Source of the DNA: Pseudolabrys sp.
Lineage (GTDB): Bacteria; Pseudomonadota; Alphaproteobacteria; Rhizobiales; Xanthobacteraceae
Direction of reading: 5' to 3'
DNA: 64,000 bases
Assembly: GCA_022841665.1 (NCBI GenBank)
Contig: JALHRB010000001.1
Location: 1 to 64,000, forward strand
In this document: one piece after another, positions 55,328 to 61,011 of the stretch
Layout: each line of letters starts with the position of its first letter
Numbering within the stretch: the stretch's first letter is position 1
Program-made: the position numbers and the translations under genes
Notes under the pieces: model-generated
What the model saw: the letters and a program-made list of their open reading frames with translations, nothing else
What the model was told of the DNA's origin: nothing
Databases searched by the model: none

Positions 55328-55981
55328 TCATTGCCATAGCTTCCCGTCTCGCTGTCGGACTACCGTAAACGATTGGAAGGAAAGACGCGCTTTACAGACC
55401 GTTATCTCGGTCGCCAAATCGCCCAATGCGTCGGACAACTCTTGTCGGGTTATAGTGGAGGAATGCCCGACAATCACTTCTCTTAGCGCCATCGATTGCG
55501 AAAACTCGCAAAAATATAAGCCAGACGTATCGCAATCACTTAAGGCAACAAATAGGCGCACTTCGTTTTCGTAGCGCCAGTGAACATATTTTGTCGTTAG
55601 CACTTTGAGAATTTCTTTTTGAGCGGGAGCCCCTCCTCCTTCAATTACGCCGACATTCGGCTCTATTCGTCTTGGCTTATATTCAACGGGGGCCAAATAT
55701 CTTTTTGGAATGTCAAAGCCCAAACACAACCCTTGGTGCTTTTCAGCATAATGACTCCATTGGACTGGATTTCGCCAGTTCCGGCTAAAACACAACATCC
55801 CTCTATTGAGGGCTAATTGATCCTTGAGAATTCTGAAACGTCGCCTTAGGCGTTTGTCACTTGATGATGGCCCCAACAACTCAAACGGGTCATTCAAGTC
55901 ATTAATCGTAGCAATCTTGAGCCTGCGGCGACGCAAATTTTCTAGACCGTAATTCCTGCCAACGAAATGAAATACTCGCAT
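55328..55981 (-). CDS. DUF2971 domain protein, low GC
   Basis: 217 residues. The DUF2971 pattern is visible: the early YHFVGRNYG-like start, FCFSRNWRNPVQWSHYAEKHQGLCLGFDI and KYVHWRYENEVRLF. DUF2971 proteins are often found in genomic islands and near phage-defence genes; the function is unknown. Base use is clearly AT-richer than its neighbours, with codons such as AAT, TTA and AAA, suggesting recent acquisition. Translation reads well from the ATG at 55981 to the stop. Confidence 0.85.
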   Translation of the reverse strand: MRVFHFVGRNYGLENLRRRRLKIATINDLNDPFELLGPSSSDKRLRRRFRILKDQLALNRGMLCFSRNWRNPVQWSHYAEKHQGLCLGFDIPKRYLAPVEYKPRRIEPNVGVIEGGGAPAQKEILKVLTTKYVHWRYENEVRLFVALSDCDTSGLYFCEFSQSMALREVIVGHSSTITRQELSDALGDLATEITVCKARLSFQSFTVVRQRDGKLWQ

Positions 55982-56021: not shown

Positions 56022-56300
56022 TCACTGCCGCCTCGGCAGCCTCGCAATTTCCTTCCCCGCCGCTTCTCCCGCCACACGAATATCGTAAGCCCCCTGCAGA
56101 TTGAGCCAGAACTGCGCGCTGGTGCCGAACCAGTGGCCGAGGCGGAGCGCGGTGTCGCCGGTGATCGCGCGCTTGCCCTGGACGATCTGGGTGATGCGGT
56201 TGGCCGGCACGCGCAACTGGCGCGCCAGCTCGGTCGGCGTCACGTCGACCTCGCCGAGTTCTTCGGCCAGGATTTCGCCGGGATGGATGGCCGGACGCAT
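56022..56300 (-). CDS. higA: HigA-family antitoxin
   Basis: 92 residues from the ATG at 56300 (MRPAIHPGEILAEELGEVDVTPTELARQLRV), the classic HigA/VapI opening with an XRE helix-turn-helix at about 22-70. It is downstream of the toxin gene, as usual in HigBA. The stretch upstream to 56348 is not family-like. Confidence 0.92.
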   Translation of the reverse strand: MRPAIHPGEILAEELGEVDVTPTELARQLRVPANRITQIVQGKRAITGDTALRLGHWFGTSAQFWLNLQGAYDIRVAGEAAGKEIARLPRRQ

Positions 56301-56310
56301 GGTTCGCTCC

Positions 56311-56595
56311 TCAGTGATAGTCCACGATCTCGACATTCGACGGCCCACGGGCGCCGCGCGGCCATTCGAAACAGATGCGCCATTGCTCGTTGATGCGGAT
56401 GCTGAACTGCCCCGCTCGGTCGGCCTTCAACGCTTCCAGCCGGTTGCTGCGCAGCACGCGCAATTCGTCGAGACTGACCGCCGCGTCGAGCACTTCCAGC
56501 CGCCGGTAGGCCTGGCGCGCAAAACCCTGAAACTCGCGGACGAAGCTGCCTTCCGCAAAAGCCGAAGTCCGCTTGTCCCGGTAGCTCAGGATCAT
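56311..56595 (-). CDS. higB: HigB (RelE-superfamily) toxin
   Basis: 94 residues. MILSYRDKRTSAFAEGSFVREFQGFARQAYRRLEVLDAA, RSNRLEALKADRAGQFSIRINEQWRICFEW and a C-terminal VEIVDYH are the HigB features, with the Arg and His residues of RelE-like mRNA interferases. It cleaves mRNA at the ribosome in characterised relatives. It precedes higA by 10 bp. Confidence 0.92.
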   Translation of the reverse strand: MILSYRDKRTSAFAEGSFVREFQGFARQAYRRLEVLDAAVSLDELRVLRSNRLEALKADRAGQFSIRINEQWRICFEWPRGARGPSNVEIVDYH

Positions 56596-56637: not shown

Positions 56638-56702
56638 GTGATATCGATGGGATGCGCGGCATCGCTACTTGTGGACGCTTTCCATCGAACTACAATCTAC
56701 GG

Positions 56703-57968
56703 ATGCATTCGGCCGAAGCCCTCCTGCCCGATCCCAAATCCCTCTCCGCCCGCGGCCCCTTCGCGCGCGACGCGCCGCTCACCTCGCTTGCCGCCTTCGA
56801 CGCCCAAGGGCTGACGCCGGAGACGATGGCTGGCGTCGCCGGCGCGCGCGTGCTGCTCGCCCATTACGACCTGCTGCTGCACGATTTCGCCGAGCCCCTC
56901 GCCGCCCTGCTCAGCCGCCACGTGCCGCACGCGTGCGATCTGCGCGCTGACGAAGCCCAAGCGATCGACGCTTGGCTTGTCGCCCACACCGCCTTCGTCT
57001 CCGCGCCGCAAGCGGCGCAGGCTTACGCCAACACGCCGATCCCGCTCACCGGACAAGCCCGCACCGCCTGGCGGCCGCCACGCTATGGCCGCGCCGCCGT
57101 CATGGGCGCTCCGGGCGGCGTCCTGTTCGACGTCAAGGGCTGCGGCGTGCCGCCCGATGAGGTGCCCGAACTGCCGAATTCGAACGGGCTGCTCACGTTG
57201 AGCGAAGCCTTGTACGAGTTCGCCCTGGAGCGCCTGGTCTACGCCGCGCTCGTGCATGGCGGCAGCGCCGTCCGGCCGGTGCCCGCCTATGCTATCGTCG
57301 ATCTCGGCTTCGACGCGCTGGCGCTGGCCGATCATCCGGACGGCCGCGCGCGCGCCACGTTGCTGCTGCGCCGCGCGCAGACGCGGCCGCGTTGCCAATG
57401 GGGCAAGGAAGATCCGGGGCCGCGCATGGCCGGCCTGCTGCTGGAGATCGAACTTTCGCTGCGCCGTTACGGCATCAGCGCGAGCAATTGCGGCGCCGTG
57501 CGGTTCGACATCGTTCCCGCGCACAACGGCATCGCCGTCAGCCGCGACGGCAAGGCCCTGCCCTTCGATCCGGACCGCCTCGCGCAGATCGCCCGCGCCA
57601 CCGGCTATGCCGGCCGCCCGCTCGCCGTCGATGGCGTCAACGTGCAGATCGCCGACAGCGAGCCGCCGTGCACGCGCGTGCTCGACTTCGGCCGCTATCG
57701 CCTGCGGCCCGCGTTCGATGCCGTCCTCTACACCTGGTGGAGGCGCGACTACGAAAGCCTCGAGGGCGAATTCCTGCGGCCGGACGCGCCGCGTTACGTG
57801 CAGCCGGAGCCTGCGCTCAGCATGGCGGCGCTCGAAGCGCAGCCGTCATGGCAGGCGCTGTGGGAGGCCGCCGGCAACTACGGCAAGGGCCGCCTCGGCC
57901 GCCACGCGCTCGCGAAAGCCTTCGACGGCGCGGTCGCCGACGCGACCGCGCACCTTGCTTGCGATTAG
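56703..57968 (+). CDS. Unrecognised protein with kinase-fold (SelO-like) motifs
   Basis: About 421 residues (an in-frame start at 56652 would add 17). I do not recognise the family by whole-protein likeness. Three regions recall SelO-type protein AMP-transferases and other kinase-fold enzymes: FDVKGCG in the place of the ATP-binding Lys strand; LSEALYEFALERLVYAAL in the place of the Glu helix; and VDGVN-VQIAD followed about nine residues later by VLDFGRYR, resembling the catalytic Asn and DFG metal loop. No signal peptide or membrane segment. It ends seven bases from the convergent Cys-repeat gene. Function unknown; an ATP-dependent modification of a protein or peptide is a hypothesis only. 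Confidence 0.55.
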   Translation: MHSAEALLPDPKSLSARGPFARDAPLTSLAAFDAQGLTPETMAGVAGARVLLAHYDLLLHDFAEPLAALLSRHVPHACDLRADEAQAIDAWLVAHTAFVSAPQAAQAYANTPIPLTGQARTAWRPPRYGRAAVMGAPGGVLFDVKGCGVPPDEVPELPNSNGLLTLSEALYEFALERLVYAALVHGGSAVRPVPAYAIVDLGFDALALADHPDGRARATLLLRRAQTRPRCQWGKEDPGPRMAGLLLEIELSLRRYGISASNCGAVRFDIVPAHNGIAVSRDGKALPFDPDRLAQIARATGYAGRPLAVDGVNVQIADSEPPCTRVLDFGRYRLRPAFDAVLYTWWRRDYESLEGEFLRPDAPRYVQPEPALSMAALEAQPSWQALWEAAGNYGKGRLGRHALAKAFDGAVADATAHLACD

Positions 57969-57975
57969 CCGGCGG

Positions 57976-58470
57976 CTACTTGCACTTGTCCTGCTTGCAG
58001 CCGGTCAGCGCCACCGGTCCTTTGCACTTGTCGTGCGCGCAACCGGTGAGCGCGACGATCGGGCTCTTGCACTTGTCCTGCTTGCAGCCCGTGAGCGCCA
58101 CCGGGCTTTTGCATTTGTCCTGCTTGCAGCCGGTGAGCGGCGCCAGGTCGCCGATCTCGAAGCCGGCCTGCATGTTGGCCAGGCTCCAGCTCGTCATCTT
58201 GGTGTCCTCGCCGAGATCGCCCACGCGCGTGGCGCGCAGCGAGAAGGTGCGCTCCTCGGTATCGTGCGTCTCGAGCATGATCTCGTCGTCCGCGAGCGGG
58301 AAATGCTCGTGCAGCAGGCAGAGGCCGAAGCGCTGCAAATTGTTATGCTTGGCCAGCACGGCGACGACGTCGCGCAGAAAGGCCTCGTCGCCGGGCCCGA
58401 GCGGCTTGGCCTCGTCGAAGGTCGGCAGGTGACTGGAGGGGGATACTGAAACGTCGAGCGTTGCTTGCAT
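57976..58470 (-). CDS. Protein with four C-terminal LTGC-x-x-DKCK repeats (candidate modified-peptide precursor)
   Basis: 164 residues. Residues 1-110 form a leader-like domain with a conserved-looking FGLCLLHEHFPLADDEIMLETHDTEERTF segment. Residues 112-164 are four decapeptide units: LTGCKQDKCK at 112-121, 126-135 and 155-164, and LTGCAHDKCK at 141-150, separated by SPVA, SPIVA and GPVA. Each has two Cys four residues apart, a Thr and three Lys (two in the third unit). GGGAG precedes the ATG. The leader-plus-repeat layout fits multi-core RiPP precursors, or alternatively metal-binding tandem repeats. No export signal. Coding sense is strong: repeats differ mainly at third codon positions. 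Confidence 0.7.
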   Translation of the reverse strand: MQATLDVSVSPSSHLPTFDEAKPLGPGDEAFLRDVVAVLAKHNNLQRFGLCLLHEHFPLADDEIMLETHDTEERTFSLRATRVGDLGEDTKMTSWSLANMQAGFEIGDLAPLTGCKQDKCKSPVALTGCKQDKCKSPIVALTGCAHDKCKGPVALTGCKQDKCK

Positions 58471-59100: not shown

Positions 59101-59362
59101 CTCGCTTCTCTTTCGAGGCGCCGCGGAAAACTCCCCCAAGCGACAGGCGATCCCGGCGCCTGCCAAACAACACGGGCGGCGGAGCGTTGGCTGTTTGACA
59201 AATAAATATGGCAAGGGATGGCAACAGGCGTGGCTGTCATTCCGGGCGACCCCCGACTTGATCGGGGGGAGACCCGGAATCCAGTACGCCGTGCCCTCTC
59301 GATATGCTGCGGCGTACTACCTCCCCGCTTTCGCGGGGACGACAAGCATGCGAACGAACCTG
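59101..59362. repeat. Intergenic palindromes before ccdA
   Basis: No gene is seen. 59233-59280 has GTCATTCCGGG with a partner ACCCGGAAT and an inner GACCCCCGACTTGATCGGGGGAG hairpin, similar to the 45368 repeat. A CCCCGCTTTCGCGGGG hairpin at 59323-59340 resembles the element beside mipZ. Confidence 0.65.
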
Positions 59363-60091
59363 TCACCCGATTTTGCCCAGCGCGGGAAACACTTCGATCA
59401 GCCAGTAGGCGATGGTCGCCATCTGCCCGGTGACGATCAGCACGCCGGTCACCACCAGCAGCGCGCCCATCGCCTTCTCGATCGCGCCCATGCGCGAACG
59501 CCAGCGCGCCATCGCGCGCATGAAAGCGCCGGCAAAGCCCGCCGCGATCAGGAACGGCACGCCGATGCCGAGCGAATAGACCAGCAGCAGGCGCGCGCCC
59601 TCGCCTGCACTCTCTTGCGCGCCGGCGACGATCAGGATCGCCGCCAGCACCGGCCCGACGCACGGCGACCAGCCGAAGCCGAAGGCAAGTCCGATCAGAT
59701 AGGCGCCGATCATGCCGGCCGGCTTTTGCGCCACCCCGACGCGCGCAGTGCGGTCGAGCAGCGGCAGCCGCAGCACGTGCAGGAAGTGCAAGCCCATCAG
59801 AACGATCAACGCGCCGGCGATGACGCTGAGCCAGCCGAGATACGCGCTCACCGCTTGGCCAACCCACGATGCGGTCGCGCCGAGCGCGACGAAGACCGTG
59901 CTGAAGCCGGCGACGAAGCACAGCGCCGCCAGCCACACGCGCGCCCTGCCGCCGCTGGCGCCGCGCAATTCCTCCACCGTCACGCCGCCGATGTAAGCGA
60001 GGTAGGGCGGCACCAGCGGCAGCACGCAGGGCGACGCGAACGACAGGAGGCCGGCGAGAAACGCGCCGCCGGTGGTAACGTCGAGACTCAT
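59363..60091 (-). CDS. ccdA: CcdA/DsbD-type thiol-disulfide membrane transporter
   Basis: 242 residues, about six membrane helices. The two redox cysteines lie in proline-rich contexts: Cys22 (SFASPCVLPLVPPY) and Cys144 (GWSPCVGPVLA). CcdA passes electrons from cytoplasmic thioredoxin to periplasmic thiol proteins (cytochrome c maturation, or SoxV-like function in sulfur oxidation). It is divergent from the thioredoxin-like gene, which may receive its electrons. Confidence 0.93.
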   Translation of the reverse strand: MSLDVTTGGAFLAGLLSFASPCVLPLVPPYLAYIGGVTVEELRGASGGRARVWLAALCFVAGFSTVFVALGATASWVGQAVSAYLGWLSVIAGALIVLMGLHFLHVLRLPLLDRTARVGVAQKPAGMIGAYLIGLAFGFGWSPCVGPVLAAILIVAGAQESAGEGARLLLVYSLGIGVPFLIAAGFAGAFMRAMARWRSRMGAIEKAMGALLVVTGVLIVTGQMATIAYWLIEVFPALGKIG

Positions 60092-60141
60092 CGCGCGCCC
60101 TGCTCCATCGACATATTCGAGTTTTGTGATATATTGCGCCT

Positions 60142-60621
60142 ATGATCAAGCCCCGAGAATCGCAGGGAAAATCGCCCCGGAGAATGAAACTATCGTGCGC
60201 AGTCGCGCACGTGAAATTTCTTTCTATGGTTGCGCTGTTCGGCGCAACGTTCATCACGTTTGCGCCGGCGCGCGCGGCCGAACTGGTGATGTTCGAAGAC
60301 CGCGGCTGCGCCTGGTGCGAAGTTTTCAACCGCGAGATCGCGGTTGTTTACGACAAGACCGCCGAAGGCGCGCGCGCGCCGCTGCGCCGCGTCAATATCG
60401 CGCAAAAGCTGCCGGACGACCTCTCCTTCATCGCGGTCGAGCGGCTCACGCCTTTGTTCGTGCTGGTCGACAAGGGCCGCGAAATCGGCCGCATTCGCGG
60501 CTATCCCGGCGAAGATCATTTCTGGGGACTGCTCGGCGCGCTGCTGAAGAAGCTCGACGAGACTGGTACGAGTGAGGAACGCGTGCAGCGGCTGGAAAAA
60601 ACGTTGCACGCGGCAAACTGA
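60142..60621 (+). CDS. Exported thioredoxin-fold protein (SoxS-like)
   Basis: 159 residues. Signal region about 24-46 (KFLSMVALFGATFITFAPARAA) after a basic lead; an ATG at 60184 would shorten it. The motif CAWC (Cys56, Cys59) in FEDRGCAWCEVFNREI is the active site. It resembles the regulatory thioredoxin SoxS of sulfur-oxidising alphaproteobacteria. Its neighbours ccdA and an ArsR gene support a periplasmic thiol role. Confidence 0.85.
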   Translation: MIKPRESQGKSPRRMKLSCAVAHVKFLSMVALFGATFITFAPARAAELVMFEDRGCAWCEVFNREIAVVYDKTAEGARAPLRRVNIAQKLPDDLSFIAVERLTPLFVLVDKGREIGRIRGYPGEDHFWGLLGALLKKLDETGTSEERVQRLEKTLHAAN

Positions 60622-60666
60622 TCGTCTGTATTCAGGCGCCGCCGCACGGCGACAATTGGTGTACCC

Positions 60667-61011
60667 ATGGATCTACAGCAACTCGAAGGCAACGCACGCT
60701 CGCAGGAACTCGACCGCATGGTCGGCAGCGCCAAGCGCGCGAGCGACTTCCTCAAGGCGCTGGCGCATGAGAGCCGGCTGATGATCCTGTGCATTCTCGC
60801 CGAAGGCGAGAAGTCGGTGAGCGAGCTCGAGGACATTCTCTCGCTGCGCCAGCCGACCGTGTCGCAGCAGCTCGCGCGCCTGCGCGCCGACGGCCTGGTG
60901 ACGACGCGGCGCGACGGCAAGGCGATCTACTACGCCCTCGCCAGCGAGGACGCGCGGCTCATCATCGGCGCCGTCTACGACGTGTTCTGCCGCAAGGCGC
61001 GCAAGCGCTAG
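60667..61011 (+). CDS. ArsR-family SoxR/BigR-like repressor
   Basis: 114 residues, winged helix: KSVSELEDILSLRQPTVSQQLARLRADGLVTTRRDGKAIYYAL. Two cysteines sit where BigR has them: Cys42 (LMILCIL) and Cys108 (YDVFCRKA). Together with the thioredoxin-like and CcdA genes it resembles the soxR-soxS-soxV regulatory part of sox loci, without the oxidation genes. The separation from the previous gene is 45 bp. Confidence 0.88.
   Translation: MDLQQLEGNARSQELDRMVGSAKRASDFLKALAHESRLMILCILAEGEKSVSELEDILSLRQPTVSQQLARLRADGLVTTRRDGKAIYYALASEDARLIIGAVYDVFCRKARKR

Follow-up and report, generated by a model that had tools for sequence, protein, structure and literature searches.

We analysed a window of 64,000 nucleotides of Pseudolabrys sp. 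DNA, the term denoting the whole stretch at its full length. In it, an open reading frame with a repetitive tail faces a longer gene of no recognised family. The features of this locus are as follows:

57976..58470, minus strand: repeat-tailed precursor-like protein, 164 aa, ATG start, stop codon at 57976-57978
58138..58470, minus strand: N-terminal 'leader' domain, residues 1-111, present in close and distant relatives
58249..58332, minus strand: most conserved core of the leader, R47-R74 (RFGLCLLHEHF...E..E..D...R), with invariant alignment columns
58108..58137, minus strand: unit 1, LTGCKQDKCK, residues 112-121
58066..58095, minus strand: unit 2, LTGCKQDKCK, residues 126-135
58021..58050, minus strand: unit 3, LTGCAHDKCK, residues 141-150
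57979..58008, minus strand: unit 4, LTGCKQDKCK, residues 155-164, abutting the stop codon
56652..57968, plus strand: partner protein, candidate modifying enzyme, 438 aa (421 aa if translation starts at the next ATG, 56703)

In the 164-aa protein, a conserved front domain (about 105 residues) precedes a 53-residue tail that contains four LTGC-x-x-DKCK units. Each unit has four residues between its two Cys, and the spacers between units are SPVA, SPIVA and GPVA. The original prediction had described a leader-like domain of about 110 residues with four near-identical decapeptides behind it, and the reading frame and its units were confirmed at 57976-58470. A GGGAG sequence is present shortly 5' of the ATG, and the reading frame has a GC3 of 0.90. 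The array is also visible in the DNA as a 42-nt unit present in 3.7 copies with 80% matches (Tandem Repeats Finder score 216), and the differences between the units are mostly synonymous (pS 0.48, pN 0.06). Because the units differ mostly in this way, and because the motif recurs at six further loci in other genera, the array is, judged by its sequence, no accident of composition. A hydrophobic N-terminal stretch is missing in the window protein and in the six other motif-bearing proteins (maximum 15-residue Kyte-Doolittle mean of 0.55-0.76 in the first 60 residues), consistent with the predicted lack of an export signal. A structure model of the precursor (pLDDT 47.2, in the tail about 27-37) shows one helix, residues 26-41, and two strands, residues 63-70 and 75-82, and as a whole tells us little. 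Rfam gave nothing between 57900 and 60200 at E <= 0.5.

For relatives of the front domain, a profile of three close members recovered 39 loci from 84,980 genomes (one genome per species), a set in which the window protein alone as query found no relative. There are 42 close relatives, the window included, of which 7 bear the motif and 35 are of a Streptomyces type. This count omits L071 (truncated) and L020 (a fragment under another annotated gene), and takes L024, L029 and L033 as the one locus that they are. Alignment of 17 homologues places R47-R74 as the most conserved part of the domain, in keeping with the prediction of a conserved leader segment, and identifies 13 invariant residues: R47, F48, G49, L50, C51, L52, H54, H56, F57, E63, E67, D70 and R74. 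In the window's order, a profile search found a relative in 6 of 397 genomes (window included). Among the weak matches of another search, only G000 and G025 were kept, the rest looking like chance (the frames of L004, L007 and L014 were read). On plasmids, tblastn found the front domain in 15 records, from Streptomyces, Thiodictyon, Sinorhizobium, Pseudomonas and Planococcus. Several of the six plasmid relatives that we read have Cys/His-containing tails of other kinds, and Cys/His-rich tails on front-domain relatives include CVCSRTDQGHSGGH and CHYSGGTHHSGH. Three scans of viral contigs gave no relative, and phages gave no match.

The precursor has no Pfam match over the cut-off and, searched alone, none in NCBIfam, PHROGs or the PDB. 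Its profile gave 42 matches in the PDB, the best of which (0.0084) is a designed protein over 30 residues and was not taken as homology. Of the three observations that would have refuted the original prediction, none was made: the protein as a whole corresponds to no named domain over the cut-off, repeats do stand behind the leader in several lineages, and the model of the tail is too poor to show a fold through the repeats. Repeats are missing from most front-domain relatives, and the domain, which keeps a His-x-His and acidic residues, may have a function of its own. Among the distant relatives L016, L017, L018, L021 and L023, most have tails of the kind CVC...GHxGxH, the tails read being those of L016, L017, L018 and L023. 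The relative on the Pseudomonas plasmid L018 lies near a DM13-domain gene, and that on the Pseudomonas plasmid L021 near DM13 and carbonic anhydrase genes. In L026 and L027 the relatives are frames of 263-266 codons with, by eye, a second partial copy, and end in CRTKCKTTC...GPWHEGKTH.

The seven motif proteins come from the window's order (two families), from Pseudomonas and from the actinomycete Lentzea; Labrenzia sp. OB1 is classified by NCBI in the Hyphomicrobiales. They carry four units in the window, six in Labrenzia OB1, nine in P. chlororaphis PCL1601, five in P. protegens FD6, six in each of Pseudomonas G828 and G875, and one in Lentzea jiangxiensis. The units are of the TACDQDKCKSPMEM type in Labrenzia OB1 and of the LTACAMDKCKVEA type in P. 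protegens FD6. The check that the original prediction had proposed, a conserved leader set against repeats that vary in number and sequence, was run and bore the prediction out, with the front domain kept and one to nine units of differing sequence behind it. A ribosomal precursor with a conserved leader and a variable, often repeated core is also what characterizes RiPPs, and the protein has this architecture. The C, D, C and K positions are constant in all 37 units and the two x positions vary. The extraction pattern already demands both Cys, the Lys, and either D or E, so that this part of the constancy is by construction. The second Cys is preceded by K in 35 of the 37 units and by H in 2, giving C-x-x-D-[K/H]-C-K. 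All tail Cys lie inside units, with the sole exception of C112 of Lentzea. The motif CxxDKCK was sought in front-domain relatives, a search that partner-less motif proteins with other leaders would escape.

Comparison of the units within each of six genes gave pS values of 0.26-0.78 and pN values of 0-0.06. Three of these genes have pN/pS ratios of 0.07-0.17; the other three, all from Pseudomonas, have a pN of zero. The amino acids of the units are thus kept while their DNA drifts, and the motif is under purifying selection. A neutral expansion by DNA slippage, in which the tail would matter only as a disordered extension, could account for the tandem arrangement and for the different copy numbers of close Pseudomonas (five in FD6 and six in G828, with partners 96% identical). 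We consider it very improbable, given a pN/pS of 0-0.17 among units and the presence of the same motif in four lineages together with its association with the partner.

The position two residues before the first Cys is T in 35 of 37 units, S in one and Q in one. The Q occurs in the single Lentzea unit, LQGCKEDKCK, which has neither Ser nor Thr and so speaks against the Thr dehydration and thioether chemistry raised in the original prediction. With no Thr in this unit, the family as a whole is unlikely to rely on Thr-based thioethers. Lanthionine chemistry, which needs a Ser or Thr in each core for dehydration and joining to Cys, was set aside as a general explanation on the same ground, and no lanthipeptide enzyme family was found among the scanned proteins.

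The tail could alternatively be an unmodified metal-binding or redox array, similar to metallothioneins or copper storage proteins, with the partner serving as a chaperone or metallation factor. Cys-rich repeats of varying copy number would suit such a role, as would the other Cys/His-rich tails of front-domain relatives and the retention of C51, H54 and H56 in the front domain. A simple Cys chelator needs neither Asp nor the final Lys, however, and these are as constant as the Cys (37/37 each). We regard this explanation as unlikely, though it is the strongest of the alternatives, and further points that bear on it are given with the neighbouring genes below.

The 438-aa neighbour accompanies the motif wherever the motif was found. 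The original prediction had held that maturation or export by a partner would be required, and a gene that goes with the motif does exist (56652-57968), with a homologue at 7/7 motif-bearing loci. In the window, the partner is convergent with the precursor and ends 7 bp from its stop codon, so the two do not form one operon there. Elsewhere it adjoins the precursor or, in Pseudomonas, lies one gene away with a PLP gene between; at the Lentzea locus the order is operon-like with a 10-base gap, given the starts chosen here. Gene calls in the compared loci are our own choices based on GC3. The window partner shares 40-50% identity (tblastn) with those of Labrenzia, P. chlororaphis, P. protegens and Lentzea, and the G828 and G875 partners are 83-96% identical to that of P. 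protegens. In Pseudomonas G875, the partner is broken by a frame change and the giant gene described below is a remnant, while six identical precursor units remain; this locus may be decaying.

The partner occurs rarely. Five of 397 genomes in the window's order gave a match, of which the window, Labrenzia and a remote homologue in G288 look real; the weak matches G425 and G095 were excluded. It is found in 2 of 349 genomes of a phylum sample (the window and G288), in 3 of 199 Pseudomonas genomes and in 2 of 160 genomes of the Lentzea family, one of them weak. The G288 homologue is 30% identical over 255 aa, and its locus, inspected by eye for reading frames over 14 kb and by a pattern scan for the motif, contains no motif or leader.

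Residues invariant among six aligned partner homologues include K162, E189, R240, R245, N330, Q332 and D345. The partner matches no Pfam family over the cut-off and no NCBIfam or PHROGs family, and its best PDB values (0.031 by sequence, 0.28 by profile) were not taken as homology. An AlphaFold2 model built from 5 sequences is poor (pLDDT 39.7). Judged by eye, the succession of KGxG, invariant Glu and DFG-like D345-F-G along the partner matches that of the kinase motifs in the SelO pseudokinase family (PF02696). The conserved Glu falls in a helix of the low-confidence model, and the F and G of D345-F-G are not kept in the remote G288 homologue. A SelO-like partner found no support: hhalign with four usable SelO sequences gave E values of 0.064 (six rows) and 0.66 (five). 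A reversed decoy reached 0.17 and 0.055, so that the similarity is not significant, and the partner has no Pfam match to PF02696.

The Streptomyces-type relatives have a different tail and a different neighbour. C-x5-C-P, with x6 in one case, forms the C-terminus of all 35, and CxxDKCK occurs in none. The partner is present in none of these 35 loci (tblastn, E <= 0.01; the flanks covered 4 kb in L015 and at most 8 kb elsewhere, some being shorter). For partner against motif, Fisher's exact test gives p = 3.7e-8, a value that is overstated because the seven motif loci represent four lineages and the 35 one related group. A gene for a DUF6185 protein (PF19683, Pfam-confirmed in the one copy scanned) lies divergently upstream or downstream at 35/35 of these loci (L015, L035-L067 and L069). 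By eye, the DUF6185 protein has many hydrophobic segments. About 15 Streptomyces-type loci share wider synteny, and the association with DUF6185 is therefore partly one of common descent; a functional link between the front-domain family and DUF6185 is possible. On the sequences compared, tail type and partner switch together, CxxDKCK going with the 438-aa protein and C-x5/6-C-P with DUF6185. Of all the observations, this co-switching argues most strongly for the tail as the part on which each partner would work. Searches of the openly licensed PubMed Central literature found no paper for DUF6185 and none for the motif strings, and among the other titles listed none describes such a precursor and partner pair.

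An accessory gene is present in two of the motif-bearing lineages. In Pseudomonas it separates precursor and partner, in Labrenzia it follows the partner, and in P. chlororaphis it overlaps the partner by a 4-base ATGA, an operon-like order. At three loci its product matches the DegT family PF01041 with E values of 1.3e-17 to 3.1e-20 (64.5-73.2 bits against a cut-off of 19.8), and what we take to be the active-site Lys segment is present in 3/3 aligned proteins. By these matches, the gene can be assigned to the DegT/DnrJ/EryC1/StrS family of PLP proteins. At 1e-5 nothing in the window genome matches this gene, and the Lentzea genome has only weak matches, on other contigs. The presence of this gene in two lineages tells against an unmodified metal-binding or redox array.

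A giant gene forms a further part of the setting at several loci. Its open frames run to about 3,400-4,650 codons, with uncertain starts, and both giants scanned (P. protegens and Lentzea) contain LysM. It occurs in all seven host genomes, partly similar or as a remnant in two. In P. protegens FD6, G828 and Lentzea the giant immediately precedes the precursor. P. chlororaphis has the end of a giant upstream of the precursor, at a contig edge, and G875 has the remnant. In Labrenzia it is on another contig and 40% identical over its length. On contig C22 of the window genome, a frame of 3,425 codons is 37.5% identical to the giant over about 300 aa, with weaker similarity elsewhere. Giants are found in 5 of 164 Pseudomonas genomes, three of which are hosts of the pair, and in 8 plasmid records (Mycetohabitans, Azospirillum, Nostoc and others). 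In scattered bacteria, the window genome among them, giants often have a large co-oriented reading frame or a fused part upstream. PADLOC gave no match for the precursor, the partner or the PLP gene, nor for the segment of the giant used as query.

This arrangement raises the possibility that the pair is an accessory of the giant, an adaptor, assembly or cross-linking factor, and not the maker of a free peptide. The position of the giant immediately upstream in three genomes, with its end or remnant in two more, is what such a role would predict, as is its rarity otherwise (1 of 198 other genomes of the window's order). We nevertheless find this improbable, more so than a metal-binding array. 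In the genomes of the window and of Labrenzia the giant is unlinked from the pair, the similarity of the former's giant is partial, and giants occur without the pair in G784, G850 and G103, where the flanks we read contain no motif or leader. In the cases seen, the pair was always accompanied by a giant, but a giant not always by the pair.

Other genes surround the locus in the window. On the other side of the precursor, 59363-61011 encodes a DsbD-type membrane protein (PF02683), a protein with a weak thioredoxin-like match and an ArsR-family regulator. These genes could be a separate thiol/sulfur module or part of the precursor system. They would suit a metal, sulfur or redox role for the tail, but thiol and ArsR genes were not seen at the other motif loci in a partial scan of the flank genes listed. 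No protease or exporter recurs among the listed flank genes, and no RiPP enzyme family was found among the scanned flank proteins, which cover part of the flank reading frames. Directly beside the partner, on the minus strand at 56022-56595, are a HigB-like toxin gene (PF05015) and an HTH antitoxin-like gene, followed at 55328-55981 (minus) by a gene for a DUF2971 protein that matches the PADLOC candidate defence group PDC-S31 (5.7e-23). A short palindrome-like stretch at 59235-59340 (gtcattccgggcgacccccgacttgatcggggggagacccggaat) is presumably an intergenic repeat element.

Several known peptide modification systems share individual features with this one. Proteusins and other NHLP precursors are described as having long, structured, protein-like leaders ahead of a C-terminal target (PMC12455567), which is the layout seen here. 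The front domain differs from them in lacking a Pfam (cut-off), NCBIfam or convincing PDB match, and the neighbouring genes are different. MNIO substrates are described as carrying Cys-motif repeats in variable number; they include the Buf_EGKCG/oxazolin precursors, with a Lys next to Cys in EGKCG, and the CxxxxC family, in which the C-x4-C spacing of the units here also exists (PMC12452194). Sec signal peptides and neighbouring MNIO, DUF2063 and DoxX genes are given as features of these precursors (PMC12452194). In our proteins the N-terminus is without a hydrophobic stretch of that kind, and no MNIO (MbnB_TglH_ChrH), DUF2063 or DoxX match was found by Pfam in the partner, the PLP gene or the scanned part of the flank reading frames. 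Multicore graspetides have repeated cores (PMC8939145), and Lys and acidic residues such as those of the units could in principle form lactams, but neither the partner nor the scanned flank proteins (part of the flank reading frames) has an ATP-grasp match. MNIO, graspetide and YcaO readings were set aside, with no such gene among the proteins scanned.

Taken together, we consider it moderately probable that a RiPP-like system modifies the 164-aa protein, as a multicore substrate, by means of a dedicated enzyme that belongs to none of the recognised families. The protein-like front domain would be the recognition part that docks the substrate, and the tail would present the target motif C-x-x-D-[K/H]-C-K one to nine times. 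The 438-aa neighbour would be the dedicated enzyme, or the core of one, acting on each unit, with the side chains of the constant Cys, Asp and Lys as likely targets. In Labrenzia and Pseudomonas, a further step could be carried out by the DegT-like PLP enzyme. Alignment and comparison of loci establish the homology of the front domains, the variation in unit number, the purifying selection on the motif and the joint switching of tail and partner. What we infer is any modification of the tail, the enzymatic nature of the partner and its action on the tail, and the residues that would change. The original prediction of a RiPP precursor is thereby supported in part.

More tentatively, the family might represent a new class of modified repeat peptides. 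A folded leader would present one to nine C-x-x-D-K-C-K cores to a maturase of a fold new to peptide modification. This maturase might be kinase-like and activate the carboxylate of Asp so that it could be joined to Lys or Cys, and a PLP step would be optional. The leader family would re-use another tail with the DUF6185 protein in Streptomyces, and the pair would work with the giant. We put this fuller proposal forward as a possibility, less secure than the modification system itself.

Modification of the tail, if it takes place, would make the neighbour a maturase outside the recognised families and the front domain a new protein-like leader, and mining by known enzyme families would miss such a system. 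The co-switching of tail and partner offers a direct handle on the roles of both an uncharacterised protein family and a DUF.
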